A DNA stretch of 49,808 bases from the IMG/VR virus record IMGVR_UViG_3300042905_003911, positions 1 through 49,808 of that record; one strand, given 5' to 3'. The notes under the pieces are model-generated. The model saw only the letters and a list, made by a program, of their open reading frames with translations. It did not search any database and had not been told where the DNA came from. Position numbers and translations under genes: made by a program. This DNA comes from a virus. Of this stretch, positions 9,837 to 43,848 are shown in pieces; the first letter of the stretch is position 1; every line of letters starts with the position of its first letter.

Positions 9837-11393
9837 ATGGCGCTAAATTATACATCAGAAAAACTTTCACTAGACAATGCTGAGAGATTTAAAGACTCTT
9901 TCAGTGATGCTGATCCGTCTATTCAATACATTTTTATTGGAAATCACACACCGTATTCCAATGAATCTTCTCCGTCAAGCATTGTAGAAACAATCGCAAG
10001 TGAAAAGTCTGTTTGGGATAACATGTTTGCGGCAAAAAAAGTTACCGCAACTGACGTAGAATTGGTCATACCTAGAGTAAATTGGACAGCAAACACAAAG
10101 TATCGTCAGTATGATGATACGATTGCTTTGTCAGACTTGATTAGTGGTAATACTACTCAAAATCTGAAGCCTTTTTATATTATTACGTCAGACAGAAATG
10201 TTTATAAGTGTCTTTCAAATAATTTTTCTTCAAACTCTACGGTTGAACCTACGGGTGATTATTCTACTTCTAATGGCGCTATTTCAACGGCTGATGGCTA
10301 TATTTGGAAGTACATGTTCAATGTCAAATCGTCGAACAAGTTCTTAAATACTGATTGGATTCCAACACCAACAAGAAATACTCAAACAAGTGGATTGTCG
10401 GATTATGGTCTTGATGACACAGGTGTTGTAGAAGGTGAATTGACAACGGTTGTAATTACTAGCGGTGGTTCTGGTTACTATGACACAAGTATTGGTGTGA
10501 CTCCTTTTATCACCGGCTGTTCTATTTTGACTGTAGCAAACACAACAAATATTGCCGCAAATATGGCAGTTTCGGGAACAGGTATACCTACTGGAACAAT
10601 TATTTCTGTTCTCGATACACCAAACAACAAAATTACTTTGTCATCAGCAGCTACGTCAAATGGCGGTGGCAACGGATCAAATCTATCAATTGCTACCCGA
10701 ATCTATTTTGATGGTGATGGTATAAATGCCGCAGGCTCGGCAACTCTGGCAAACGGTCAAATATCTAAAATTACGATTACAACAATTGGAACAGGGTACT
10801 CACGTGCAAATGTTTTGATATTCGGTTCAGGTACAGGTGCCAACGCTAGAGCAATTATTGCGCCAAAATATGGACATGCCAAAAATCCAGCAAAAGATTT
10901 GTTGGCTAAAAATGTCATACTGACAAGTGTAATTGGACAAGTTGATTCTACTGAAGATGGTTTGATTTCTATCGACACATCTTTTAGACAATTTGGATTA
11001 CTCAGAAACCCGCATAAATATGGTCAATCGGCAGTAGCAAATAATTCAACTGCCAATGCGGTCATAAGCCAAGCAAGAACTTTGACGATGACCCCAGGTC
11101 CTTCATATACTCTTAATGAATATGTGTATCAAGTAACTGCTAACAATACAATTGCGTATGGTTTTGTTTATTCACAAACGGCTACTGCGATAAAAGTTAC
11201 TCAAGTTAAAGGTAGTTTTGTTGTTGGTCTTTCAGTTATTGGCGCATCATCAGGAACATCACGTACACTAGTGGCATCAGCAAACCCTGAATTTGAGCCG
11301 TATTCTGGTGATATTTTGTATGTTGAAAACATCGAAAAAATAGAAAGAGAAGATGGTCAAGCTGAAAATATCAGATTTATTATACAATTCTAA
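9837..11393 (+). CDS. gp8: Baseplate wedge protein gp8
   Basis: A 518-aa wedge protein; T4 gp8 is 334 aa. Family landmarks remain: an early IQYIFIGNHTPYSNE like the T4 FITFGRSEPWS segment, VWDNMFAAKKV followed by VIPRVNW (T4 VIPRRDW), TADGYIWKYMFNV (T4 GDGYVWEYLFEI), and the C-terminal YVENIEKIEREDGQAENIRF (T4 MIYMENRPPI...TEEINILF). The extra length comes from beta inserts at residues about 205-348 containing two GG-x-GY motifs shared with gp6 and the 831-aa protein. In T4 gp8 is a dimer on the wedge near gp7. Confidence 0.85.
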   Translation: MALNYTSEKLSLDNAERFKDSFSDADPSIQYIFIGNHTPYSNESSPSSIVETIASEKSVWDNMFAAKKVTATDVELVIPRVNWTANTKYRQYDDTIALSDLISGNTTQNLKPFYIITSDRNVYKCLSNNFSSNSTVEPTGDYSTSNGAISTADGYIWKYMFNVKSSNKFLNTDWIPTPTRNTQTSGLSDYGLDDTGVVEGELTTVVITSGGSGYYDTSIGVTPFITGCSILTVANTTNIAANMAVSGTGIPTGTIISVLDTPNNKITLSSAATSNGGGNGSNLSIATRIYFDGDGINAAGSATLANGQISKITITTIGTGYSRANVLIFGSGTGANARAIIAPKYGHAKNPAKDLLAKNVILTSVIGQVDSTEDGLISIDTSFRQFGLLRNPHKYGQSAVANNSTANAVISQARTLTMTPGPSYTLNEYVYQVTANNTIAYGFVYSQTATAIKVTQVKGSFVVGLSVIGASSGTSRTLVASANPEFEPYSGDILYVENIEKIEREDGQAENIRFIIQF

Positions 11394-11402
11394 AGGTTAG
11401 AC

Positions 11403-14400
11403 ATGGCATTAAATTTTAATACAAATCCATATTATGATGATTTTGATGAGGATAAAAATTTTCATAGAATCCTGTTTAGACCTGGTCGTGCTGTACAAGC
11501 ACGTGAATTAACACAATCACAAACTATTCTTCAAAACCAAGTTGATCGTTTTGGTAAGCACGTTTTCAAAGAAGGTTCAAGAGTTACCGGTGGTGAGACA
11601 TTTGATGAGACTGTAATTTCCGTTAAACTTCAACCAACTTTTGGGAATACCACAATTGATATTTCCAATTATGATGGTTATTTTGCTGTTGCTAATAGCA
11701 GTAATGCTGTCTACAAAATTAAAAAAGCTGAAGTTGCTGACACCGTAGATCCAAACACCTTGTTTTTGTTGTTTATTAAGGGTACGGGTAGACTATCTTC
11801 AAATGCGAATAGTGCTGTCTCCAACTCTGAAACACTCAGAGTATATTCAACTGGTGATCTTTCCGCAGCGAATCTTGTTGGCAACGTACTTACTTCTTCT
11901 ACAGAAACTTCGTTTACAGGAAGACTATTTTCCATTAACGAAGGCATCTTCTTTACAAATGGTTGTTTTGTAAAAAATGATGCTCAAACAGTTGTAGTTT
12001 CAAAGTATTCAAACAATGCGAACGTAACTGTTGGCTTTGATGTTACAGAGTCTATTGTTACATCATCATCAGATTCTTCTTTACTTGATCCAGCTATTGG
12101 TGCTTCAAACTATATTGCACCAGGCGCAGACAGATATAAAATTGCACTCACATTAAGTGCAAAAGAAATTGTTGATGAGTCGATACCAGACTTGACAACA
12201 TCAAACTATATTGAAATTTCTCGTTATAGAGAAGGTATTTTAGTCAAAGATACAAGAACTTCAATCTATTCTGTTTTAGATGAAACTCTTGCCAGAAGAA
12301 CATATGATGAATCTGGCAATTATAGAGTAGACGGTCTTGATCCTAAGATTCCAAGAGAGAAGTTTTCATCATCAGCAAATACTACATTTGCTTTGGACAT
12401 AAGCCCAGGTAAAGCATATGTCAAAGGTTATGAAATAGAAACAATTGGCACAACTTCATTGTCTGTAAATAAAGCACGTGACACTGAAAGTGTGTCGGGT
12501 TATGACGTTCCTGCTTATTATGGCAATTATTTTTATGTGACAACTGCTAATGGTGCGGTCATAAACTTTTCTACTGCCGAAAAATTAGAACTTCATACAA
12601 ACGTGGGTGCGTTTAGCGCATCAACAAAAATTGCTGAAGCATATCCCAAAAATCTTGAGTATGTAAGTGGTAATGGTTCAACTTCAACTTACAAGTTACA
12701 ACTTTTCAATATTGTAAAAACAAGTAATACACCAATTGATTTAACACGCTGTATCATTGCAGGTAATTCCACCTCAGTTAATGCTACGTGTAACATCTCA
12801 AATAGTTCGGTTATTACAAGAACGATTGCTGGTACAAACTATTCTTATTCAAACGTAATTAATCTAGCTAGTTCTACGGGTGTGACTGTTGGTATGGAAG
12901 TTTCGGGTACTAATGTTTCATTCCCGACTTATGTAACTGCTATTAATGGTAATGATATTACTGTAAGTGGAAATCCTGTAGGTAACAATACATTACAATC
13001 ACTTACATTTAGATCAGCATTTTTGACAGATACCAACTATGATGCCTCTGTTTTTGAAGCATCTTACGATGTAATTAAAGAGTTTTCTCAAGTCAATTAT
13101 AATGCTAAACGAGTATTCAAATCTGTATCATTTACTGCTGGTATAGCATCTGTTCAAACAAATGATGGCACCGAAAGATTCAAAGACGTAAGCGGTGCTA
13201 ATCTTCAGAGAAACTATGCTATCTGTATTCGTACTGGTGGTACAGGTTCTTTCCCGAATTTCACTTGGGTTAATTTGAGTGCTGGTTCTTACATTAGTGT
13301 TCCATCACCTTCACCAGGTTCTCCAGCAACTCTGAATATCAATTTGGGTGATGGTACGTTTAATGGTACAGCAGATATTCTAACCACGCTTGATATTACG
13401 GCAGCAGCAAGAAGAACTAAAACATTATCACAAAACAACATTAAGTATTTTACCGTATTAGACACGGCAAATACATTCTCTCTGGGTTATGCTGATGTAA
13501 TCAATGTATCAGCAATTTACATTGCCACCGGTTCTAATAACGCATCGAACGCAAACGTGAACGTAGTTGGGAGTTTTGATATTGATTATGGTCAAAGAGA
13601 TAGCTTCTATGATCATGCTACAATTAAACTGAAGAATGGTGTTACTGTTAATACTGGTAACACAATGATTGTATTTGATCGTTATACTCATTCGGGTACA
13701 GGCTTCTTTGATACTTTGTCATATCCAACGTACAATACAATTCCAACGTACACAAAAACAGACGGCACAATAATTGATTTGAGAGACTCAATAGATTTTA
13801 GACCAATTAGAACGGCAAATGTGTCTTCTAATGTTTATTCAAATCTCTCAATGACATTTGCCTCACAACAAATCGTTGATTCACTTATCGGTTCAGTTGA
13901 TACTGATGTTGAATATTATCTGGCCAGAAATGACAAAGTTGTTTTGAGAAAGAATGGTTCATTTGCTGTCATTGAGGGTGTAAGTGCCTTAAACAATCCA
14001 CCAATTCCAAATGATGAAGTGGATGCGATGACATTATATACTTTGACAATCGATCCATACACATATGGAATCAGCAATGTTAAAATGAAGATTGAAAGTA
14101 ACAAACGTTACACAATGAAAGACATTGGTGCGCTTGACAATCGATTAACAAGAGTAGAATATTATACGGCACTTAATTTACTTGAAAAAGATATTGCTTC
14201 ATCAACTTACTATGATGATCAAAATAATCTGCTCTTTAACAACGGCTTCATTGTAGATTCGTTCAAAGGACACAGTATTGGTGATGTGTTTAATACTGAT
14301 TATAAGTGTTCAATTGACTATGATAATGAGATATTAAGACCAAGATTTGAAAGTAACGGTACATCTTTGTTACTGTCTAGCAATACACTTGCTACAACTG

Positions 14401-16763
14401 GCAATCTTTTGACTCTTTCTTATACTTCGGTACCTTATATTACACAAAACATAGCGTCAGAAACAGTCAATGTTAATCCATTTAATGTCGTTGGATTTAT
14501 TGGTTACGTAAGATTAGAAAAAGATGTCGCAAGTTGGGTAGATTTTTCTACAAGACCAGATGTTGTAATTAACAATGACAATGGTTTAGATAATTATGTC
14601 TACTCAAATAATTTTGCTGGCACAAAGTGGAATGATTGGGCAGTATTAGGTTACGCTGAAGAAACAAATGTAATCTACACGTATTACTCAACATCAGGCC
14701 AAAGTGTTCAGACCACAACTGATGGTAGAGTAAGACAGCAAGACAGTGCTATATTAGAAAACAAACTGTTAAATTATGTCGCAAATACAAGTATTAACTT
14801 CGAGTTATTTGGTATGCGACCAAACACTGAAATAACAGTGTACTTGGATTCTAATCAAATCAGTAGTTATCTGCGAGCATACAACGTTACCTCTGCAAGT
14901 TATACTACAGAATCTTTAGTTACTAACTCCAATGGTTACGCTAAAGGACGTTTAACTATTCCTAATGATGCGGCATTCAAATTTACAGTAGGTAAAAACC
15001 ATCTGTATTTCTGTGATAATCGCATTGATATGAGAAGTGTTAGCACTATTGCTGAGACATATTTTTACTCAGCAAATCCACCAGTTGTAAAGCCAAATCA
15101 ACCGGTAAGAAATGATCCAGCCATAAACAATGTTGGTGGCGGAAGTTCGGGATATACACCAACTTCATATGATGATAGTTGGAAAACAACTGAAAATGCT
15201 ATCGCCATTCAATTGCAAAATAACGGAACTAGTGGTTTAAGAGGCACAGGGGGAAGTGGAGACTTTAAAGATGCTGTTAGAGATGCTACAAACGGCGCAG
15301 GTTGGTCAGCGCAACCATCTTATGCTGCTGCCGTTTCTGCTGTAACTGCTGCTTCAAGTCTAGTTGATAGTTTATATTCGGGAATTTCAAGTCGAACCGG
15401 TGGCGCAGACCGTGATGGATATAGTTATTGGGTTTCTGTTGCTTCATCTCCTGGCGTAGATTCCGCATGGGTCACTGCTGCATTTAATGCTGCCGCCGCT
15501 GCAAATGGAGAGTGTGTAGGAAAAGATCCAATTGCACAAACATTCTTTGTCAATCGATTCACAAATCCAAACGGCATTTTTGTATCGAACATTGATTTAT
15601 ACTTTGCCACAAAAGACAATGCGGGAATTCCAGTTTCGGTCGAACTAAGACCAACTGTAAATGGTTTCCCAGATTCAGAAAGAGTCATTCCTGGTTCCAG
15701 AGTAACATTGAATCCTTCAAGTGTTAATTTACCATCAAATCCAAATATTCCTGTTGCTACAACATTCACATTTGATGCGCCAATATATCTTGAGCCGGGT
15801 GAATACTCTTTCGTTGTTCTAAGCAATTCAGATCAATATACGGTTTACATTGGTACAATTGGTCAGCAAAGACTTGATGGTGTAGGTCCTATTGTTTCGC
15901 AACCATATATTGGTTCATTCTTCAAGTCACAAAACGCATCTACATGGACACCAGAACAGAACAGTGATATCTGTTTCATTCTCAGACAATGTAGATTTAC
16001 GGCAAATACAAATCAAACTGCTGTTCTGACACCCGTTGCTTTGGGCTATACTCAACTGTATGATGTCGCAAGAGTAAGTGTACCATATCAGTCATTGTCA
16101 CCATCAGCTAATATCTCATTTGAGTTGTCAACTAAAAATAATGGGGCATCGGTGTTGAGTGACTATGTTGGAATTATTCCAAACTCAAACATTTTGCTTG
16201 ATCAAAGAAAAACAGCAAATGCCGCAACTGATGCGAATGTCAAAGTAACGATGACAACAACAGACCCGGATGTTTCACCGTATCTAGATATTTCTCGTTC
16301 GAGTTACATTGTCATTAAAAACTTGCTAGATAGTTCAGCAGCCGCAAATGTAGTTTCGTATCCAGAAACTTTATCATCCGGTGGTGGAGCTTTGTCTAAG
16401 TATATTATGCGTAAAGTTACTCTAAATGATGGCTTTGACTCTTCCGCAATTAGAGTTTATCTACAACAAAACTTGCCGCAAGGTTCTTCAATTCAAGTTT
16501 ATTATCGTGTGCTTTCGGCAACCGATTCGGATAAAATTGAAAATAAGCCTTGGACATTGATGACACAAACTGGTGTATCTTCAGTTAATCAAAATAATTC
16601 TGAATACTATGATTATGAATATAAAGTGAATGGTGTAAGCTACACTTCTGGTGGAGTAACATACACAAACTTCAGAACATTTGCGATTAAGATTGTATTC
16701 TATTCTACAAACCCAGCCAATGCACCAACGGCTAAGAATCTGAGAGCGATTGCACTGTCATGA
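11403..16763 (+). CDS. Giant virion structural protein (DUF4815-type N-terminus), probable baseplate/tail periphery
   Basis: A 1786-aa protein, among the largest in the window. The N-terminus (YDDFDEDKNFHRILFRPGRAVQARELTQSQ, then GKHVFKEGSRVTGG) is the hallmark of a phage virion family that I know as DUF4815. The centre is beta-rich with repeated short strands. A Gly/Ser-rich linker lies near 1240-1300. From about 1374 (DPIAQTFFVN) a second conserved block with NIDLYFATKDNAGIPVSVELRP, EPGEYSFVVLSNSDQY and ICFILRQCRF forms a beta-sandwich-like terminus. Its position after gp8 is that of T4 gp9/gp10, so it may replace the fibre-socket and pin proteins, but no homology to them can be claimed. 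AAGG precedes the ATG. Confidence 0.65.
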   Translation: MALNFNTNPYYDDFDEDKNFHRILFRPGRAVQARELTQSQTILQNQVDRFGKHVFKEGSRVTGGETFDETVISVKLQPTFGNTTIDISNYDGYFAVANSSNAVYKIKKAEVADTVDPNTLFLLFIKGTGRLSSNANSAVSNSETLRVYSTGDLSAANLVGNVLTSSTETSFTGRLFSINEGIFFTNGCFVKNDAQTVVVSKYSNNANVTVGFDVTESIVTSSSDSSLLDPAIGASNYIAPGADRYKIALTLSAKEIVDESIPDLTTSNYIEISRYREGILVKDTRTSIYSVLDETLARRTYDESGNYRVDGLDPKIPREKFSSSANTTFALDISPGKAYVKGYEIETIGTTSLSVNKARDTESVSGYDVPAYYGNYFYVTTANGAVINFSTAEKLELHTNVGAFSASTKIAEAYPKNLEYVSGNGSTSTYKLQLFNIVKTSNTPIDLTRCIIAGNSTSVNATCNISNSSVITRTIAGTNYSYSNVINLASSTGVTVGMEVSGTNVSFPTYVTAINGNDITVSGNPVGNNTLQSLTFRSAFLTDTNYDASVFEASYDVIKEFSQVNYNAKRVFKSVSFTAGIASVQTNDGTERFKDVSGANLQRNYAICIRTGGTGSFPNFTWVNLSAGSYISVPSPSPGSPATLNINLGDGTFNGTADILTTLDITAAARRTKTLSQNNIKYFTVLDTANTFSLGYADVINVSAIYIATGSNNASNANVNVVGSFDIDYGQRDSFYDHATIKLKNGVTVNTGNTMIVFDRYTHSGTGFFDTLSYPTYNTIPTYTKTDGTIIDLRDSIDFRPIRTANVSSNVYSNLSMTFASQQIVDSLIGSVDTDVEYYLARNDKVVLRKNGSFAVIEGVSALNNPPIPNDEVDAMTLYTLTIDPYTYGISNVKMKIESNKRYTMKDIGALDNRLTRVEYYTALNLLEKDIASSTYYDDQNNLLFNNGFIVDSFKGHSIGDVFNTDYKCSIDYDNEILRPRFESNGTSLLLSSNTLATTGNLLTLSYTSVPYITQNIASETVNVNPFNVVGFIGYVRLEKDVASWVDFSTRPDVVINNDNGLDNYVYSNNFAGTKWNDWAVLGYAEETNVIYTYYSTSGQSVQTTTDGRVRQQDSAILENKLLNYVANTSINFELFGMRPNTEITVYLDSNQISSYLRAYNVTSASYTTESLVTNSNGYAKGRLTIPNDAAFKFTVGKNHLYFCDNRIDMRSVSTIAETYFYSANPPVVKPNQPVRNDPAINNVGGGSSGYTPTSYDDSWKTTENAIAIQLQNNGTSGLRGTGGSGDFKDAVRDATNGAGWSAQPSYAAAVSAVTAASSLVDSLYSGISSRTGGADRDGYSYWVSVASSPGVDSAWVTAAFNAAAAANGECVGKDPIAQTFFVNRFTNPNGIFVSNIDLYFATKDNAGIPVSVELRPTVNGFPDSERVIPGSRVTLNPSSVNLPSNPNIPVATTFTFDAPIYLEPGEYSFVVLSNSDQYTVYIGTIGQQRLDGVGPIVSQPYIGSFFKSQNASTWTPEQNSDICFILRQCRFTANTNQTAVLTPVALGYTQLYDVARVSVPYQSLSPSANISFELSTKNNGASVLSDYVGIIPNSNILLDQRKTANAATDANVKVTMTTTDPDVSPYLDISRSSYIVIKNLLDSSAAANVVSYPETLSSGGGALSKYIMRKVTLNDGFDSSAIRVYLQQNLPQGSSIQVYYRVLSATDSDKIENKPWTLMTQTGVSSVNQNNSEYYDYEYKVNGVSYTSGGVTYTNFRTFAIKIVFYSTNPANAPTAKNLRAIALS

Positions 16764-16969
16764 TGTATAAAGTAAAAGATCATAATAATCTTTTGAGAGA
16801 CCCTTCAAATCAGGCGATCATAAATGTCGATAGAGAGAAATTGTCGGAACATCGAAATAAAAAACAAATGAAAGATAATATCGAATATTTAAATGAAGAG
16901 ATTGCTTCTTTAAAGAGCGACTTTCAAGAGATTAAATTTTTGTTGCAACAGATTGCAAGTAGAGGATAG
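16760..16969 (+). CDS. Small coiled-coil protein
   Basis: A 69-aa charged protein starting four bases inside the end of the giant gene (ATGA overlap), so it is translationally coupled to it. Residues 1-35 are polar (NLLRDPSNQAIINVDREKLSEH). Residues 36-66 form an amphipathic helix with Ile/Leu at heptad spacing (IEYLNEEIASLKSDFQEIKFLLQQI). No enzymatic motif is present. It may trimerise and cap or connect the upstream structural protein. I do not recognise a named family. Confidence 0.7.
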   Translation: MMYKVKDHNNLLRDPSNQAIINVDREKLSEHRNKKQMKDNIEYLNEEIASLKSDFQEIKFLLQQIASRG

Positions 16970-16971
16970 AA

Positions 16972-17655
16972 ATGCCAGCAAATATTAATCAAATAACAAC
17001 TGCAAATACCTTTCAGCAATGGCTTGTTGCAACTCAAGATTTGATTGGAATTGCTAACAATCTTACCAACGGTGTAGGCGGCACATTCTATGCAAACACA
17101 GATTTAGTTGTTGGAGGCAATCTTACTGTAACAGGTAACATTAGACTTGATGATGCCGGATTCAATGACATTAATGTAGCCGGAAATGTCTATGCCAGTG
17201 GTTATGCTTTCTCTGCTGATGCCAATGTAAAATCTGGAGTTACCACATTTAAAGTGACAAACTCAGGCTCTTCAGCATATCTTTTCGACCAGTATACGGG
17301 AAACAATCCGAACATTTATTTACATCCTGGTCAAACGGTGTCTTTCAATATTGATGCTGTTGGTCACCCATTTTTAATCAGACAGTCTTCTGGGGGTACA
17401 TTATATAATGTTGGACTTACTCATGTTTCAACAACTGGAGTCGTTTCAATAGGTTCAGATGCACAAGCAAAAACAACGGGAACTTTAATTTGGAAAGTGC
17501 CGTTTGATTTACTAAACAATACCTATGTTTATCAGTGTCAGAATCATTCTGGAATGGTGGGGAATCTAATCATTCAAAATACGGTTACAGCCGCTCTTGC
17601 AGCAGCCAATTCAGCAACGGCTGATTCGTTGGCTTTTGCAATAGCCTTAGGATAG
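16972..17655 (+). CDS. Virion-type protein with a cupredoxin-like (type 1 copper) domain
   Basis: A 227-aa protein of three parts. Residues 1-75 look fibre-like (GGNLTVTGNI, then NVAGNVYASGYAF). Residues 90-203 read as a cupredoxin fold: YLFDQYTGNNPNIYLHPGQT, GHPFLIRQSS, then YVYQCQNHSGMVGNLIIQ. All four type-1 copper ligands are in place: His132, Cys189, His192 and Met195, in the C-x2-H-x2-M spacing of amicyanin-like proteins. Residues 205-227 are an Ala-rich helix. There is no signal peptide, so the copper site would be carried in the cytoplasm or on the virion rather than exported. Related domains occur in marine phage fibre proteins as far as I recall. Copper binding is inferred. Confidence 0.7.
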   Translation: MPANINQITTANTFQQWLVATQDLIGIANNLTNGVGGTFYANTDLVVGGNLTVTGNIRLDDAGFNDINVAGNVYASGYAFSADANVKSGVTTFKVTNSGSSAYLFDQYTGNNPNIYLHPGQTVSFNIDAVGHPFLIRQSSGGTLYNVGLTHVSTTGVVSIGSDAQAKTTGTLIWKVPFDLLNNTYVYQCQNHSGMVGNLIIQNTVTAALAAANSATADSLAFAIALG

Positions 17656-21468: not shown

Positions 21469-21888
21469 ATGAACAATGAAGAGATTTATTATTCGCAGTT
21501 TTTGATTAATCATGGTCAAGGTAGACTAGATTGTAATTATAAAACAGCAGCACGTGCGTTAAGACCAACAGCACAGTATGGTTTGTCGGAACAAGATGGT
21601 GAGTTTGTTTTCACTGAGTATCTAGATGAAAGTGGTTTACCGCCACCGACAAAAGAAGAAATATTGAGTGAACTAGAGTTTCAGCAAAGATTTTGTACAT
21701 ATTGGCAGCACTTTTATGACCGGTATCAGGCATATCCTGATATCACTGTGTTGTTTAATTTACTGTGGGATGCGATAGATAAAGATTATATTAAAGCAAA
21801 AAAATCGGATTTTTACAAGGTGATTAAACAGGTAAACGAACAATATCCTTCTCCAGAGGGTGAGCCGCCTTCTAGAACGAATAAATAA
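21469..21888 (+). CDS. Tandem paralogue A, XkdW-like small tail protein
   Basis: A 139-aa protein (NNEEIYYSQFLINHG; AARALRPTAQYGL; LPPPTKEEILSELEFQQ; YWQHFYDRYQAYPDI; EGEPPSRTNK). The next gene has the same length and matching blocks, so they are tandem duplicates. The R-ALRP-x-A-x-Y followed by PPT-x-EEI resembles XkdW-type tail proteins, but the match is partial. Central Trp, Phe and Tyr residues suggest a helical small domain. The upstream TGATTGAATGA is shared with paralogue B, so the duplication included the ribosome-binding region. Function unknown; possibly a fibre chaperone partner. Confidence 0.6.
   Translation: MNNEEIYYSQFLINHGQGRLDCNYKTAARALRPTAQYGLSEQDGEFVFTEYLDESGLPPPTKEEILSELEFQQRFCTYWQHFYDRYQAYPDITVLFNLLWDAIDKDYIKAKKSDFYKVIKQVNEQYPSPEGEPPSRTNK
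21880..21887 (+). promoter_or_regulatory. T4-type late promoter (AATAAATA)
   Basis: Lies in the last codons of paralogue A (Asn-Lys-stop). Predicted start near 21893, then AGGGTG at 21907-21912 and the ATG of paralogue B at 21918. The spacing is good for a short leader. Confidence 0.5.
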
Positions 21889-21917: not shown

Positions 21918-22337
21918 ATGAATAACGAAGACATTTCTTATGCTCAGTATTTGGTAGGCAGCAATAACAAACTTGTGTGTGGTATTGACACGGCAATTAA
22001 AGCACTTAGACCACATGCTCGTTATGATATGTCTGCGTCCGGTGGACACTTTGAGTTCACACGTTGGGAAGATGAGACAGGCAGCAAGCCACCAACAAGA
22101 GATGAAATTTTTAAAGAACTAGAATATCAGAATAAGTTTATTGAATACTGGCAGCACTTTATTGATCGTGCTGCAAACTATCCTGATATAGTAACAATAG
22201 TAAATAATTTATGGGAAGCAATTGATTCTGGTGCTATTCCGGGAAAAGGAACAAAATTCTATGACTCTATTAAAGAAATCAATGATAAGTTTCCTAAACC
22301 AGAAGGTGAACCACCAGTAAGACCGACATACGAATAA
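21918..22337 (+). CDS. Tandem paralogue B, XkdW-like small tail protein
   Basis: A 139-aa duplicate of the preceding gene: NNEDISYAQYLVG, AIKALRPHARYDM, KPPTRDEIFKELEYQNKFIEYWQHFIDRAANYPDI, then KFPKPEGEPPVRP. Most differences lie outside the aromatic core, indicating selection on the fold after duplication. Its own late-promoter-like motif precedes it. It is followed within 11 bases by the second adaptor-like gene. Possibly each copy serves a different adhesin, since one lies after the 685-aa adhesin and the other before the glycine-rich set. That is inference. Confidence 0.6.
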   Translation: MNNEDISYAQYLVGSNNKLVCGIDTAIKALRPHARYDMSASGGHFEFTRWEDETGSKPPTRDEIFKELEYQNKFIEYWQHFIDRAANYPDIVTIVNNLWEAIDSGAIPGKGTKFYDSIKEINDKFPKPEGEPPVRPTYE

Positions 22338-22744: not shown

Positions 22745-23128
22745 ATGGCTGCGCCAAACATTGTTAGCGTATCAACTATTTTAGGTAAGAGTAATGTCGC
22801 CAACATTACAACAACATCATCGTCAGTCATTGTCAATGCTGTCAATTCAGGTAAAGTGTTTAAAATTAACACTCTGATTGTATCCAATGTTGACGGAACA
22901 AACGCTGGCAATGTCTCAGTCGAGTTGTTTAAATTTGGCGCACAAAACTCAAGTACAGGTGTAGGTAACACAACATATGCAATTGCAAACGTTGTTACTG
23001 TACCTGCTAAATCATCACTTGATATTTTGTCAAAATCACTTTACTTAGAAGAAGGTGATCAAATCAAAGTCAAAGGTGATTCAAACAATCGTCTACATTT
23101 CATCTCATCATTTGAAGAGATTAGCTAA
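22745..23128 (+). CDS. Small beta-sandwich protein, second cassette
   Basis: A 127-aa protein with the layout of the 18551 gene: ILGKSNVANITTTSSSVIVN, VFKINTLIVSNVDGTNAGNVSVELF, YAIANVVTVPAKSSLDIL, then LEEGDQIKVKGDSNNRLHFISSFEEI. The G/E-D-Q-I-x-V-K-G block is the typical last hairpin of this fold. GGAGGT precedes the ATG by a short spacer. Its stop overlaps the start of the glycine-rich adhesin (TAATG), so the two are translationally coupled and may be made in fixed proportion. Confidence 0.65.
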   Translation: MAAPNIVSVSTILGKSNVANITTTSSSVIVNAVNSGKVFKINTLIVSNVDGTNAGNVSVELFKFGAQNSSTGVGNTTYAIANVVTVPAKSSLDILSKSLYLEEGDQIKVKGDSNNRLHFISSFEEIS

Positions 23129-25734
23129 TGCCTTTAGGTTTAAATGGCGGCATCATTGGCCTAGTAAATCCAGTTACAACTAGTAGTGCCACTGGTCTTT
23201 GGACACTTGATCAAGTAAGCATCAATAGACTTGCTGGCTTATGGCCAGTTGATTTCACACCCGCTCCAAATGTAGCCGTTCAAATTTTTACAGAAAGCAC
23301 ATCATGGACTGCACCTCAAGGTGTGTCTGAGGTTGAATATCTTGTTGTTGCTGGCGGTGGCGGCGGTGGAGGAAGCACTGGCGGCGGTGGTGGTGCTGGC
23401 GGACTTAGAACTGGTACAGGTTTATCCATAACACCGGGAACCACCTATACTGTCACTATTGGAGCAGCAGGAGCAGCATCGGGAACAGGACCGGCTAATC
23501 AAACATCTAAAGGTGGAAACGGTAGTAATTCTATATTCAGCACTATTACGGCTACCGGTGGAGGTGGAGGTGGCTCCCGGAATACGAATTTTGTAGGGAA
23601 TGACGGTGGATCTGGTGGTGGTGCTGGGGGAGGCGCCCCTACCGGTACTGGTGGTGGATTAGGCAATACACCATCTACATCACCAAGTCAAGGAAATAAT
23701 GGTGGTGCCGCTAGGTGTGGAAACAGAGCAGGCGGAGGTGGAGGTGCTGGTGCAGTTGGTCAGAGTGGTCAGCCCGGAGGTCCTGATAGATCGGGGAACG
23801 GTGGCATAGGAATATTTTCGACAATATCTGGGGCTAATATAGCATATGCCGGTGGCGGTGGTGGTGGCGGCTCTAGACTTGAATGTGTAGCAGCAGGATT
23901 GGGTGGCGCTGGTGGGGGAGGAAATGGTGGGTATACTACAGAAGGGTTTTCTGGAAATACCAGCACCGGTGGCGGAGGTGGCGGTGGCACTTTACAACCT
24001 GGACCCATCAACTCAGCCGGTGCCGCAGGTGGTTCTGGTGTCATTGTTCTCAAATGGACATTTAGTAATCCAGCTAATCAAATATTTACTTTCGCCAACA
24101 CAGGGCAATTCAGAGTACCCGATGGTATCACATCAATCGACTATCTATTAGTTGCTGGCGGCGCAGGTGGTGGTGGTTCTATAGGTGGTGGTGGAGGTGC
24201 TGGTGGATTCAGAACTGGAACTGGTTTTCCTGTTGCTCCCAATCAACTTTATACTGTCACAGTTGGTGCCGGTGGTGCCGGTGGTGCTGCACAGCTTGCG
24301 TTTCGAGGAAGTAATGGCGTAAGTTCATCAATTTCTGCTGGTAATACCGCTAATAATCCTATTCTTTCTGCTACTGGTGGAGGTGGTGGTAGTTCATATT
24401 CATGCTGTTCTGCTAGGGCTCAGAGTGGTGGTTCTGGTGGTGGAGCGGGCGCTCTTGTTCCAACACCAGGTTTAGGTAATCTAGGTGGTTATACTCCGTC
24501 TGAAGGAAATAATGGAGGAACTTCTACGAATAGTGGATATAACACTGGTGGAGGCGGTGGTGCAGGTGGCGCAGGAGTAAATGGGATTTCATCCGGAGTA
24601 AATATTTCAGGTAATGGGGGTATTGGTTTATTTAATTCTATAACTTCTTCAAACACTGCTTTTGCTGGTGGTGGAGGTGGTGGTAGTAGAAGTGATGCCT
24701 CTGGAAGTATTGTGGGTAAAGGTGGTGGTGGATATGAGTTATATTCCGCAGGATCACCTTGGCTAGGAACTCCTTATGGTGGAGGTGCCGGTGGTAGAAC
24801 AACAAACGGCAGTAGCGCAAATAATAATACCGGTGGTGGCGGAGGTGGTGGTGGGTGGACACCATGTGCGTATTATGCTGGTGGCGCCGGCGGTTCAGGT
24901 TTTGTCGCCATCAAAATCTCTGCTGTACAAAACAAAATCGCAGTCTTTTCATCCACAGCAACATGGAACGTGCCAACAGGTGTGACTAGTCTCGATTATC
25001 TGGTCGTGGCTGGTGGCGGGGGTGGTGGTAAAGGCGGCAACGGTGGCGGTGGCGGTGGTGCAGGTGGATTTAGAACAGGCACAGGTTACGGCGTAACTCC
25101 TGCACAAACAGTCACTATTATTGTTGGTGCTGGTGGAGCTGGTGCTAGTACACCTACCACAGATGCAAATGGTTCTTCCGGTTCAAATTCATCTTTTGGT
25201 ACAATATCAAGCACTGGTGGAGGATTTGGCGCTGGTGGTGGTCCCGCTACCAGTCCTACGGTTCAAGGAGGGCGTGGTGGTTCAGGTGGTGGCGGTTCAA
25301 GAGGTTTCGGTGCACCTGGAGGAACAGGAAATTCTGGTGGTTATACACCATCTGAAGGAAATGCCGGAGGAAGTTCCGCTCCCGGAAACACCGATGGTGG
25401 TGGTGGCGGTGGTGGTGCAGGCGGAGTAGGGAATAATGCAACACCGTCTAATCAAGGTGGTGATGGTGGTGCTGGATCAAACTCAAGCATAACAGGTACA
25501 AATACAACATACGCTGGAGGTGGTGGCGGCGCCGGCGGTTCTGGAAGTGTTTATGGATTTTCTGGTGCTTTAGGTGGAATAGGCGGTGGAGGCCGTGCTG
25601 GTTATAGTGCTAATGGAGCATCTGGGACCGCAGGCACTGGGGGTGGGGGTGGAGGAGCTAATCCTGGACCTGTATCCGGATTATATGTTGGCGGCTCCGG
25701 CGGCTCAGGCGTCGTTATTCTCAAATGGACATAA
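23128..25734 (+). CDS. Glycine-rich putative tail adhesin A (three Gly-rich modules)
   Basis: An 868-aa protein. A short N-terminal part (GLNGGIIGLVNP; GLWTLDQVSI; LAGLWPVDF) is shared with the next gene and is the likely attachment domain. Three modules of about 260-300 aa follow (near 50, 315 and 600). Each opens with a T-W/F-x-VP-x-GV-x-x-x-(E/D)YLVVAGGGGGGG strand, passes through many poly-Gly runs with GNNGG, FSTI-x-G and YAGGGGGG, and closes with GG-G/A-GGSG-(V/F)-(I/V)-x-LKWT or IKIS. This is the glycine-rich fibre domain of marine phages (Gly_rich_2 type). In known phage adhesins poly-Gly loops form receptor-binding tips, so host recognition is the best guess. Confidence 0.72.
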   Translation: MPLGLNGGIIGLVNPVTTSSATGLWTLDQVSINRLAGLWPVDFTPAPNVAVQIFTESTSWTAPQGVSEVEYLVVAGGGGGGGSTGGGGGAGGLRTGTGLSITPGTTYTVTIGAAGAASGTGPANQTSKGGNGSNSIFSTITATGGGGGGSRNTNFVGNDGGSGGGAGGGAPTGTGGGLGNTPSTSPSQGNNGGAARCGNRAGGGGGAGAVGQSGQPGGPDRSGNGGIGIFSTISGANIAYAGGGGGGGSRLECVAAGLGGAGGGGNGGYTTEGFSGNTSTGGGGGGGTLQPGPINSAGAAGGSGVIVLKWTFSNPANQIFTFANTGQFRVPDGITSIDYLLVAGGAGGGGSIGGGGGAGGFRTGTGFPVAPNQLYTVTVGAGGAGGAAQLAFRGSNGVSSSISAGNTANNPILSATGGGGGSSYSCCSARAQSGGSGGGAGALVPTPGLGNLGGYTPSEGNNGGTSTNSGYNTGGGGGAGGAGVNGISSGVNISGNGGIGLFNSITSSNTAFAGGGGGGSRSDASGSIVGKGGGGYELYSAGSPWLGTPYGGGAGGRTTNGSSANNNTGGGGGGGGWTPCAYYAGGAGGSGFVAIKISAVQNKIAVFSSTATWNVPTGVTSLDYLVVAGGGGGGKGGNGGGGGGAGGFRTGTGYGVTPAQTVTIIVGAGGAGASTPTTDANGSSGSNSSFGTISSTGGGFGAGGGPATSPTVQGGRGGSGGGGSRGFGAPGGTGNSGGYTPSEGNAGGSSAPGNTDGGGGGGGAGGVGNNATPSNQGGDGGAGSNSSITGTNTTYAGGGGGAGGSGSVYGFSGALGGIGGGGRAGYSANGASGTAGTGGGGGGANPGPVSGLYVGGSGGSGVVILKWT

Positions 25735-25737
25735 CAA

Positions 25738-28239
25738 ATGGCAAGCAGAAGATTTAACGGTGGTATAATTGGTGTAAGGAATCTTGCTAGTTCAGACAGC
25801 ACTGTGGGTCTTTGGACTCCTGGTGAAGTTCAACTAGCAAAATTAGCTAATATATGGCCGGTTGACAGGGGTCCGTTAGGTGCTAATGGTATTCAAGTTT
25901 TTACTGAAAGCACGACATGGTCGGCATCAGAGGGTGTGACAAGTGTAGAATATCTTGTTGTTGCTGGCGGTGGTGGTGGTGGAGGAAGCACTGCTGGTGG
26001 TGGAGGTGCCGGTGGATTTAGAACAGGTACAAGTTTAGCCGTAACTTCAGGACAAGTTTATACAATTGTTGTTGGAGCAGGCGGTAGTGGAAATGCACCA
26101 ATGGTGGTCGGATCAAATGGTTCAAACTCTGGTATTTATGGCACATCTCCCTTTCCAGCTATTTGGTCAATTGGTGGAGGTGGTGGCGCCACTGGTGCAC
26201 CAAATAGTGGTACATTGGCAAGAAGTGGAGGTTCTGGTGGAGGGGGTACTTGTTATGCTGGCCAACCGTCAGAACTGCGAAATGGTGCGCTTGGAACACC
26301 GGGTCAAGGAAACAATGGTGGAAATGGTGCCAGTGATGCCGGTGGCGGTGGTGGTGGAGCAGGAGGAGCGGGTGGAAATGCTTATTTAATACCCGCCGTT
26401 GGTGGTGCAGGCGGAAATGGTGGTGTAGGACTTTTTTCATCAATCTCCGGTTCAAATACTGGATATGCCGGTGGTGGTGGCGGCGGTAGTCAAGTTTCAG
26501 TCGGCACTGCCTCTCAAGGAGGTGGCGCTGGTGGCTCAGCAGCAGGAACCGCAGCACTTACTAACTCTGGTGGTGGTGGAGGTGGTGGATGGCCTTATAC
26601 TGGAGGAGGTGGTGGTGCTGGAGGTTCGGGTGCTGTTATTCTCAAATGGACATTTGGAAATCCAGCAAATCAAATCTTTACTTTTGCCAACACAGGACAA
26701 TTTAGAGTACCTGATGGTGTAACAACAGTCGATTACTTAGTTGTTGGTGGCGGTGGAGGTGGTGGCTGGGGTTTGGCGTGCTCATTCAATGGTGGGGGTG
26801 GTGGCGCCGGTGGCTTTAGAATTGGGACTGGCTTTGCCGTTGGACCTAATCAATTATATACTGTTGCTGTAGGCGCTGGAGGTGCAGCCAATTCTTCTGG
26901 TGGAAATTCAATTTTTAGCACTATAACATCAAATGGTGGCGGTCGTGGTGGAGGTGGGCCTAATTCCTATGGAGGTAATGGTGGTTCTGGTGGTGGGGGA
27001 GCTTCACATACTCCATTAAATGGTGGTTCAGGGAACACACCTGCAACATCACCAAGTCAAGGTAATAACGGTGGTGTAGGAACTCCAAGTGCGCCCGGAT
27101 ATGGTGCTGGTGGTGGCGGTGGTGCTGGTGCTAATGGGGCAAATGGAACAAGTGGCGGTGGTGGCAATGGTGGTAATGGAAGCGCATCTTCTATTACTGG
27201 TTCAAGTGTCACTTATGCTGGTGGTGGCGGCGGTGGAGCATCTGCTGTAACTGCTGGTACGGGAGGTTCTGGTGGAGGGGGTAATGGGGGAAGAGCGGCC
27301 TCCGGTTCCACTGGAACTAATAATCTAGGTGGCGGCGGTGGCGGTGGTTCAGGTATTGGAGCATCTTACGCCGGCGGCATCGGCGGTTCTGGCTTTGTCG
27401 TCATCAAAATCTCTGCTGTACAAAATACGATTGCTATTTTCTCTAACACAGCAACATGGAATGTGCCCACTGGTGTAACAAGCGTTGATTACTTAGTTGT
27501 TGCTGGTGGTGGTGGCGGCGGTCACTTTGGCGGTGGTTCGTCTAATGGCGGTGGTGGTGGCGCCGGTGGTTATCGTACCGGTTCTGGATACGGAGTATCA
27601 GCAGCACAAACATTTACTGTTGTTGTAGGTGCTGGTGGAAGTGTAAATGCAAATGGAACTAATTCGGGATTTTATACCACAGGAACTTCATTATGGTCAT
27701 TGGGTGGTGGTGCTGGTCAATGGAGATGTAATAACGGTGATTCTGGTGGTTCAGGTGGCGGTGCTGGTGGTGGCACCTCACCCCCTTCATTTCGTCCTGG
27801 GGGAGCGGGTACACCCGGACAAGGTAATAGTGGCGGCACTAGTATAAGTTTAGCACCAGCAAATGGTCGTGGTGGTGGTGGAGGTGGTGCGGGTCAAGTC
27901 GGAGGTAACGCATTTGATATGTGTAACCCATCATCCACAGGCAGAGGTGGCAACGGTGGTGCTGGTTTATATTCATCAATAACGGGTTCAAACACTGCCT
28001 ATGCCGGTGGCGGTGGTGGTGGCGGTGATGGCAGAACTTGTCAGGGTTTTGGATCTGGTGGAGTTGGTGGCGGCGGAAGAGGTTCTGGAAAAGCCTTTTG
28101 TCCAGGTCCAAGTAGCTTTGTACTTTTTCCTGCCGTAGCGGGAACGCAGGGTACTGGTGGTGGTGGCGGTGGTAGATCACATTGTAGTTTTGCCGGTGCA
28201 GAAGGTGGTTCAGGTATTGTTGTTATTAAATGGACATAA
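25738..28239 (+). CDS. Glycine-rich putative tail adhesin B (paralogue of A)
   Basis: An 833-aa tandem paralogue of the preceding gene. It shares the N-terminus (FNGGIIGVRNL; GLWTPGEVQLAKLANIWPVD) and three modules (about 50-305, 307-557 and 560-833), with nearly identical module joints such as FGNPANQIFTFANTGQFRVPDGV and KISAVQNTIAIFSNTATWNVPTGV. The loops between the joints differ strongly from copy A. Cys residues occur in a few loops (RTCQGF, AFCPGPS, HCSF), which is unusual for a phage fibre. The pattern of conserved frames and variable loops fits alternative receptor-binding proteins that evolve by duplication and recombination. Confidence 0.72.
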   Translation: MASRRFNGGIIGVRNLASSDSTVGLWTPGEVQLAKLANIWPVDRGPLGANGIQVFTESTTWSASEGVTSVEYLVVAGGGGGGGSTAGGGGAGGFRTGTSLAVTSGQVYTIVVGAGGSGNAPMVVGSNGSNSGIYGTSPFPAIWSIGGGGGATGAPNSGTLARSGGSGGGGTCYAGQPSELRNGALGTPGQGNNGGNGASDAGGGGGGAGGAGGNAYLIPAVGGAGGNGGVGLFSSISGSNTGYAGGGGGGSQVSVGTASQGGGAGGSAAGTAALTNSGGGGGGGWPYTGGGGGAGGSGAVILKWTFGNPANQIFTFANTGQFRVPDGVTTVDYLVVGGGGGGGWGLACSFNGGGGGAGGFRIGTGFAVGPNQLYTVAVGAGGAANSSGGNSIFSTITSNGGGRGGGGPNSYGGNGGSGGGGASHTPLNGGSGNTPATSPSQGNNGGVGTPSAPGYGAGGGGGAGANGANGTSGGGGNGGNGSASSITGSSVTYAGGGGGGASAVTAGTGGSGGGGNGGRAASGSTGTNNLGGGGGGGSGIGASYAGGIGGSGFVVIKISAVQNTIAIFSNTATWNVPTGVTSVDYLVVAGGGGGGHFGGGSSNGGGGGAGGYRTGSGYGVSAAQTFTVVVGAGGSVNANGTNSGFYTTGTSLWSLGGGAGQWRCNNGDSGGSGGGAGGGTSPPSFRPGGAGTPGQGNSGGTSISLAPANGRGGGGGGAGQVGGNAFDMCNPSSTGRGGNGGAGLYSSITGSNTAYAGGGGGGGDGRTCQGFGSGGVGGGGRGSGKAFCPGPSSFVLFPAVAGTQGTGGGGGGRSHCSFAGAEGGSGIVVIKWT

Positions 28240-38771: not shown

Positions 38772-39206
38772 ATGGAACAACTAATCGAACAAATGAAAGT
38801 TATCTTGGGTACAAATTTTGCTTTGTACTTTAAGGCACATACTTTTCATTGGAATGTAGAGGGTCCAGACTTTGCTCAATATCACGGTTTCTTAGGAGAC
38901 TTTTACGAAGCAGTGTTTGACCAAACCGATTCAATTGCTGAACATATCCGTGCGTTGAATTCGTATGCGCCAACAACTCTTGGTAGAATGAGTGAACTGT
39001 CAAAGATTACTTTTAACGTAGCGATACCTGCGCCAATCGTAATGATGTCAGAACTTGCTGCGGATAACGACAAATTTATTATGGAACTTCGTACTGGTAT
39101 TGCTGTTGCTGATGCCGCCGATGAACCTGCGGTAGGTAATTTCTTACAAGATATTTTAGATGCTCATCAAAAACATGGTTGGATGCTGAAGAGTTTTACA
39201 CGCTAA
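38772..39206 (+). CDS. dps: Dps-family ferritin-like protein
   Basis: A 144-aa member of the Dps/ferritin-like superfamily, which stores iron with H2O2 and shields DNA. The helix signature KAHTFHWNVEGPDFAQYHGFLGDFYEAVFDQTDSIAEHIRAL (21-62) is diagnostic. Compared with E. coli Dps, His26 and His38 keep the 12-residue spacing of H51 and H63, and Asp53 and Glu57 match D78 and E82. The position of D67 is Gly42, with Asp43 next to it, so one metal site is altered. No lysine-rich N-terminal DNA-binding tail is present, and it is shorter than most Dps. It lies between gp16 and gp17 with 4- and 3-base gaps. No signal peptide. Confidence 0.88.
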   Translation: MEQLIEQMKVILGTNFALYFKAHTFHWNVEGPDFAQYHGFLGDFYEAVFDQTDSIAEHIRALNSYAPTTLGRMSELSKITFNVAIPAPIVMMSELAADNDKFIMELRTGIAVADAADEPAVGNFLQDILDAHQKHGWMLKSFTR

Positions 39207-42614: not shown

Positions 42615-43160
42615 ATGGCATTTAACGTAAATCAGTTCCGTTCACAACTAACAGGTGACGGTGCCCGCCCAAATCTATTTGAGGTAAGTATGCCGTTTCC
42701 TGCGTTCTCACTACCAGGAAACGCACAAACAAAAATGACGTTCATGTGTAAGACAGCACAACTTCCAGGGGCAACTCTGGGTGTTGTGCCAGTTCAATAC
42801 TTTGGCCGTGAATTAAAGTTTGTGGGCAATCGCACGTTTGCTGACTGGACAGTAACAATTATCAACGACGAAGATTTTATTGTGCGTAATGCATTTGAGC
42901 GTTGGATGAATGGCATCAATAGTCATAATCTAAACGTTCGTAATCCAGCCGCTGGTACACCACTAGGTTACACAACTGATGGTGAAGTTACACAGTTTGG
43001 TAAAGCGGGTAACTCAATTAAGAAATATAAATTTGTTGGAATGTTCCCATCAGACATCACACCAATTGATGTTGATTGGGGATCAAATGATACGATTGAA
43101 GAGTTTTCTGTAACACTTACCTACCAGTGGTGGGAAGCAGTTGCAGATGGTGTGGTCTAA
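42615..43160 (+). CDS. gp19: Tail tube protein gp19
   Basis: A 181-aa inner tube subunit (T4 gp19, 163 aa). Family blocks: FNVNQFRSQLTGDGARPNLFEVSMPFP (3-29), MTFMCKTAQLPGATLGVVPVQYFGRELKFVGNRTFADWTVTIINDEDF (43-90), AFERWMNGINSHN, then YKFVGMFPSDITPIDVDWGSNDTIEEFSVTLTYQWWE. It follows the sheath as in T4 and has its own promoter-like motif and AGGAG. Directly after its stop lies a clear intrinsic terminator, so it closes the sheath-tube unit. Confidence 0.97.
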   Translation: MAFNVNQFRSQLTGDGARPNLFEVSMPFPAFSLPGNAQTKMTFMCKTAQLPGATLGVVPVQYFGRELKFVGNRTFADWTVTIINDEDFIVRNAFERWMNGINSHNLNVRNPAAGTPLGYTTDGEVTQFGKAGNSIKKYKFVGMFPSDITPIDVDWGSNDTIEEFSVTLTYQWWEAVADGVV

Positions 43161-43162
43161 GA

Positions 43163-43185
43163 GTAGGGCTTTTGCCCTACTTTTA
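43163..43185 (+). terminator. Intrinsic terminator after tail tube gene
   Basis: Perfect 7-bp inverted repeat GTAGGGC (43163-43169), loop TTTT, GCCCTAC (43174-43180), then TTTTATTA. It begins two bases after the gp19 stop codon and ends the sheath-tube transcript. Confidence 0.88.
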
Positions 43186-43203
43186 TTACAGGATGATAAT
43201 TTA

Positions 43204-43848
43204 ATGGCGTTATACCTTCTTGTCAAAGAACATGCTGACACAGGTTTAAAATACTTGTGTAAGCATGTTGCTTCTTCTTTTTCCGAATGTGAAAAATATA
43301 AAGGTTCTGGCATTTATTGGAAAAGACATATAAAACAACATGGTAACAATGTAAAAACTATCTGCCTGTTTGTCACTGAAGACGAAAAAGAGTTTCGTCA
43401 AGTTGCTAAAAAATATTCTTTAAAGTTCAATGTGATTGAATCTAAAGAGTGGGCTAATCTTTGTAATGAAGAGGGCCAAGGCGGCAACACCGTTGTTGAT
43501 AAAAAAGAACACGGTAAAAAAACTAAAATTAAACTACATCATCCAGATGTTAGAGAAAAACATCTTGCACATTTGAAAGAACACGTAAAAATTACTCAAC
43601 CATTAGCAGCAAAAGCAGCAAAAGAAAAACTTACTGGCGTTTCAAAAACTGAACGGCATAAAGAAAATATGCGTGGTAAAAGACCCCATGTTATTCAGTC
43701 GGGTAGTAAAAATAATAATGCTAAAAGCATTCAAACTCCTTACGGAATATTTGGTAGCATACGTGAAGCATCACAACAAATTGAAGGACATACATACAAA
43801 ATGATTTGGGATAGACTACAAAATGATAATTCGTGGGGGTATATCTAA
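43204..43848 (+). mobile_element. Free-standing homing endonuclease-like gene (GIY-YIG/NUMOD type)
   Basis: A 214-aa protein between gp19 and gp20, which are normally adjacent. The start is the ATG at 43204; an upstream in-frame ATG at 43141 lies inside gp19 and would read through the terminator. N-terminal block: TGLKYLCKH (13-21), YKGSGIYWKRHIKQHG (32-47), then SKEWANLCNEEGQGG (80-94), a set seen in phage GIY-YIG-like endonucleases. LTGVSKTERHKENMRGKRP (143-161) resembles a NUMOD3 DNA-binding motif. The end, TPYGIFGSIREASQQ (178-192) with RLQNDNSWGYI, resembles NUMOD1-type helices. It may cut DNA of phages lacking it. The GIY-YIG core is divergent, so the nuclease class is uncertain. Confidence 0.72.

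Follow-up and report, generated by a model that had tools for sequence, protein, structure and literature searches.

The 227-aa protein P0001 of a T4-like myovirus contains a cupredoxin domain with a complete and conserved type-1 copper ligand set, occupies a syntenic baseplate/fibre position and belongs to a domain family that has spread in modular fashion over phage tail proteins. The gene was found in the window, the whole stretch of 49,808 bp that was analysed, as a stop-free frame whose translation includes both GHPF (H132) and YQCQNHSGM (C189, H192 and M195). C189 is the only cysteine of the protein. The gene and its parts are the following.

16972-17655, + strand: whole gene, tail/baseplate-associated protein with cupredoxin domain (open frame, phrog_677, synteny)
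16972-17220, + strand: N-terminal module, residues 1-83 (A5 alignment)
17221-17586, + strand: cupredoxin domain, residues 84-205 (AlphaFold2, Foldseek against PDB, profile search of PDB)
17365-17367, + strand: His132 codon, first predicted copper ligand, in GHPF (kept in 180 of 182 domains; aligns with the His of rusticyanin GHSF)
17536-17538, + strand: Cys189 codon, predicted copper thiolate ligand (kept in 181 of 182)
17545-17547, + strand: His192 codon, predicted copper ligand (kept in 180 of 182)
17554-17556, + strand: Met195 codon, predicted axial copper ligand (kept in 181 of 182)
17581-17652, + strand: C-terminal helical tail, residues 204-227, ending in LAFAIALG (model, A5 alignment)

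The N-terminal module consists of a helix (residues 14-29) followed by short beta repeats of the NLTVTGN type, and probably serves attachment or oligomerisation. The same type of module was present in 43 ORFs with a cupredoxin domain and in 4 ORFs without one. When the full-length monomer was modelled, the N-terminus was of low confidence and not resolved; the C-terminal tail, the ending of which is conserved in the A5 alignment, formed two helices, also of low confidence.

Residues 82-207 were modelled with AlphaFold2, the input being the domain sequence of the window together with those of IMG/VR loci, 43 in all. The mean pLDDT was 92.7 and the pTM 0.86. In the numbering of the model the ligands are residues 51, 108, 111 and 114: His51 immediately precedes strand 53-56, Cys108 closes strand 103-108, and His111 and Met114 are located in the loop ahead of the last strand (115-120). 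Ligand geometry in the model was judged from the secondary structure and the order of the ligands, and in the model this order of strands and ligands is the cupredoxin plan. Using Foldseek, all 49 matches in the PDB at E ≤ 0.001 were cupredoxins or cupredoxin-domain enzymes, among them rusticyanin, plastocyanin, amicyanin, copper nitrite reductase, multicopper oxidases and laccases. The TM-scores were moderate (approximately 0.5) and the rmsd was large, as would be expected if an additional segment separates the first His from the Cys loop. The preliminary description had predicted a cupredoxin-like domain; structure prediction and fold search, the check set beforehand, returned this fold, a Greek-key beta-sandwich of 7-8 strands. 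On the basis of the model, a cupredoxin fold for residues ~84-205 is almost certain.

Searches of PDB and Pfam with P0001 as a single sequence were uninformative and therefore a family profile of 63 relatives was used to search 177,635 PDB sequences. The top matches were nearly all type-1 copper or Cu_A proteins (E from 8.7e-5), and in the alignment with rusticyanin H132 was paired with the His of GHSF, and C189, H192 and M195 with Cys, His and Met, respectively. Against the Pfam family Copper-bind (PF00127), the whole protein scored 14.2 bits and the domain 16.0 bits, which is below the curated cut-off of 21.2 bits; 32 of the 63 relatives matched this family weakly at E ≤ 0.1 (best 8.7e-5). 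Five relatives matched PF25489 (At5g54830-like), which gave no match with the window protein. The weak single-sequence searches would be compatible with a fibre domain that is beta-rich but unrelated and resembles a cupredoxin by chance. However, the predicted fold, the fold and profile searches and the conservation point the same way, and chance resemblance is refuted to practical certainty.

Conservation of the ligands was determined with 241 loci (IMG/VR scans and phage records), which yielded 182 distinct domains with identities to the P0001 domain down to about 30%. The complete set of His132, Cys189, His192 and Met195, present in P0001 exactly as first described, was kept in 180 of them, so that the domain has the aligned and conserved His...Cys-x(n)-His-x(n)-Met arrangement of a type-1 site. 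The counts for C189 (181) and H192 (180) are partly selected, because the peptide patterns of the IMG/VR scans often contained these residues; M195 (181) was absent from all scan patterns, and of the six patterns used in one IMG/VR scan, a single one contained H132 (180). Phage records, which were found by tblastn without patterns, showed the same ligand conservation. The amicyanin-like C-x2-H-x2-M spacing had also been read correctly; of 98 distinct relatives, 92 have this spacing and 5 have x2/x3. By weighted conservation, the ligand columns ranked 2, 4, 7 and 8 among 136 (P ~5e-6 for random placement), and the codons of the His and Cys ligands varied synonymously (CAT/CAC and TGT/TGC). Free variation at Cys189, His192 and Met195, for which the phage homologues were checked, was not seen.

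The ligand exceptions, L058 and L069, look like degenerate copies. The L058 domain has lost both His (LCRM) and no second copy is present within its 91-kb contig, while in L069 a second tandem copy lacks all four ligands and the adjoining copy is intact. The natural variant at L058:2977-3348, in which Cys and Met are retained, provides a natural control for metal dependence. Such ligand-less copies favour a structural site, in which copper (or Zn or Cu(I)) merely stabilises a generic exposed beta-sandwich, comparable to the Ig-like domains elsewhere in phages; the promiscuous modular spread on fibre proteins, sometimes with two copies per protein as in decoration domains, fits this as well. 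The ligand-less copies are rare, however (2 of 182), and apo-cupredoxins fold without metal, so a gain in stability would scarcely account by itself for ligands that are nearly invariant across 182 domains. We consider a structural site unlikely. Because the ligands are near-invariant across very different carriers, selection appears to act on the metal site, beyond the beta-sandwich alone. Metal binding by the predicted site is highly probable, and copper is probably the metal. In small cupredoxins the first His usually precedes Asn or Ser; His132 is followed by Pro, and the site is therefore possibly atypical.

The window covers the structural region of the phage, which runs from the tail tube cap through the genes of the baseplate wedge and hub to the fibres, followed by neck, sheath stabiliser, terminase, sheath, portal and scaffold. 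Cyanophages and Pelagibacter phages are among the closest isolates when terminase and sheath are compared (~54-55% identity). P0001 is flanked by the following syntenic genes.

9837-11393, + strand: baseplate wedge subunit (phrog_438)
11403-16763, + strand: large protein of 1786 aa (phrog_358/877), upstream neighbour, probably baseplate or fibre
16760-16969, + strand: virion structural protein of 69 aa (phrog_473), directly upstream of P0001
17687-18019, + strand: protein of 110 aa (phrog_1276), directly downstream of P0001, conserved neighbour

This order, P0001 included, was wholly or largely kept in about a dozen relatives, among which the genes farther downstream of the 110-aa neighbour differ. 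The preliminary description had placed the gene in an adhesion island. P0001 is not a variable gene of such an island, because the genes on either side of it are conserved; judged from gene order, it is a stable tail gene that borders the variable fibre region on the upstream, syntenic side. Residues 52-203 matched phrog_677 ('baseplate wedge tail fiber protein connector') at 1.3e-26, a match that covers only the C-terminal third of the profile (263-410 of 412), and BFVD matches lay in baseplate connectors and tail fibres. The designation as a virion-type protein is thus supported by phrog_677, a tail family, and by gene order, which make it very likely that P0001 belongs to the virion.

Several other genes of the window were recorded. 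A Dps/ferritin-like gene (38772-39206, + strand; Pfam Ferritin 3.1e-19), situated between the small and large terminase genes, is a second metal-related gene of the same phage. It is rare in phage records, with 7 matches, the best being Synechococcus phage S-SRM01 (31.5%). Between the tail tube-like and portal genes, a 235-aa ORF (43141-43848, + strand) overlaps its neighbours; by eye it looks like a GIY-YIG-type homing endonuclease, and Pfam gave a weak HORMA match only. The fibre region contains tandem paralogous genes of 139 aa (21469-21888 and 21918-22337), and 23128-25734 and 25738-28239 look like paralogous glycine-rich proteins.

With one cyanophage-type copy as the query, 330 phage records were found, 324 of which were named Synechococcus phage, Prochlorococcus phage or Cyanophage. 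The domain was carried by proteins with a TFQQWL N-terminal module, the ends of gp9-like connectors, long or proximal fibres, collagen-like fibres and fibres annotated as S8 proteases. In the gp9-like proteins of Kyanoviridae it is located at the C-terminal end. Several proteins contained two domains, and genomes contained up to four copies (four in P-SSM2). From these sequence comparisons, the domain is a mobile module across tail proteins. A search of plasmids for relatives of the P0001 domain gave no match. Two adjacent P0001-type paralogous genes, each with an intact domain, were seen in L062, L064 and L066, and two adjacent tail genes with one domain each in L081 and L085. A second, longer cupredoxin-like class with the four ligands was observed in L081 and L085 (in both, residues 314-458 of the second ORF) and in L050 (residues 66-210). 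The sequence GRYCVTP.YP.GTYAYF, which resembles YHYH-domain proteins, follows the domain in L078, L081 and L085.

A 173-kb T4-like contig (L118/G001) has two copies of the domain and lacks psbA/psbD, which shows that the domain is not exclusive to cyanophages or photosynthetic hosts. A tail-linked role in photosynthesis was unsupported, as psbA/psbD were present in only 2 of 16 large contigs, most of the contigs being fragments. The domain could be a redox-active part of the virion, in which the tail copper alternates between Cu(I) and Cu(II); it might pass electrons to or from a surface protein of the host, or sense the redox state close to the cell and thereby gate fibre deployment or adsorption. 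In favour of this role, electron-transfer cupredoxins retain the full four ligands, axial Met included, and the domain is frequently located at the end of gp9-like fibre connectors. Cyanophages, in whose hosts the surface redox state changes with light, carry it very commonly. However, no recurring redox partner domain was seen beside the cupredoxin domain, and its presence in L118/G001 also argues against this role, which we regard as improbable.

The domain was compared with known copper proteins. Amicyanin has the fold and the C-x2-H-x2-M ligand loop in common with the P0001 domain, but it is a periplasmic electron carrier with a signal peptide, whereas the P0001 domain is fused to a tail module in a protein that, as first reported, contains no signal peptide. 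The Pro after the first His and the extra segment between this His and the Cys loop are further differences from amicyanin. The best profile and fold matches were the cupredoxin domains of rusticyanin, plastocyanin and nitrite reductase; unlike P0001, these have longer ligand loops and are soluble redox carriers or enzymes. Apart from its fusion and the lack of a signal peptide, P0001 differs from plastocyanin in having C-x2-H-x2-M and not C-x2-H-x4-M. Some of the same phages do carry PetE, a plastocyanin of the same superfamily and an auxiliary metabolic gene product, and a stand-alone tail-region copy in S-SCSM2R is annotated in GenBank as 'PetE'. That the tail domain is a mistaken PetE was rejected, since the true phage petE lies elsewhere in the same genomes; in Syn9, for instance, petE (104905-105159) and the tail domain (79905-80240) are separate loci. 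Moreover, phage PetE passes Pfam Copper-bind, whereas the compared tail domains do not.

The phrog_677 connectors (T4 gp9-like label, Kyanoviridae) have the same domain at the same C-terminal place as P0001. They are 400-800 aa long, whereas P0001 is short and has a different N-terminus, and the family has no copper annotation. Metal in phage fibres has been described as HxH iron sites in T4 gp37 and in fibres of alterophage R22Y, in connection with the Trojan Horse hypothesis (PMC11705849). These fibres resemble our reading of P0001 in having a metal in the tail fibre with a proposed role in host contact, but they hold octahedral Fe by HxH motifs, whereas P0001 has a folded, single-chain domain with a predicted type-1 copper site. 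In the open-access literature, no paper on a type-1 copper domain of phage tails was found; in this setting it would be a known chemistry at a new place.

A scan of 84,980 prokaryote genomes for the close group revealed no cellular relative. The scan with the cyanophage-type alignment found mostly proteins of Bacteroidota (L245-L253), secreted or lipoprotein-like, with a homologous C-terminal domain containing the ligand set; one L251 domain lacks the first His. Several of these proteins, the nearest cellular relatives, have a signal peptide or lipoprotein leader by eye, and some have collagen-like stalks. The cellular setting and the presumed setting on the phage tail are both extracellular. 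A match in a Rickettsiales MAG (L244) was rejected as a cellular gene, because its gp9-like N-terminus looks like phage DNA. A Flavobacterium protein (L250:4158-5315) with a lipoprotein-like leader, two SHPAHIH-motif repeats (CHRD-like by eye) and a C-terminal cupredoxin copy is a possible extracellular copper protein. The identity of the Bacteroidota relatives to the cyanophage-type query (42-61%) would agree with horizontal acquisition of a bacterial surface cupredoxin, retained as a binding domain only and conserved merely because the transfer was recent. Such an origin of the conservation is very improbable, since phage members diverge to ~30% identity with their ligands kept and with synonymous ligand codons.

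The explanation that we prefer is that the domain forms a type-1 copper module on the outside of the tail and functions in contact with the host. P0001 would be an exterior component of the T4-like tail, in which the N-terminal attachment module bears one cupredoxin domain at the level of the baseplate or proximal fibre. In the cytoplasm, the domain would most likely fold in its apo form. Since free copper is negligible there, loading would take place outside the cytoplasm, with one copper ion taken up after lysis. The copper-held site would then belong to the surface with which the tail contacts the host envelope, where it may either be recognised like a host copper ligand or hold the binding loop. 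As a whole we give this explanation an even chance, because the role in host contact is its weak step.

Copper-site domains on tails would be a new metal chemistry of virions, beside the tail-fibre iron sites, which are under debate. The domain is present in hundreds of cyanophages, including the cultured Syn9 and P-SSM2, and is thus amenable to laboratory tests. It is improbable that a large class of aquatic T4-like phages exposes a redox-active type-1 copper outside the tail, often on the long-fibre connector, as a cue or contact for deployment or adsorption; if this were true, the virion would be a redox-responsive or electron-exchanging particle. The conserved predicted site suggests that virus particles carry copper for some purpose, and tail copper domains may matter for the carriage of copper in sea and lake water.
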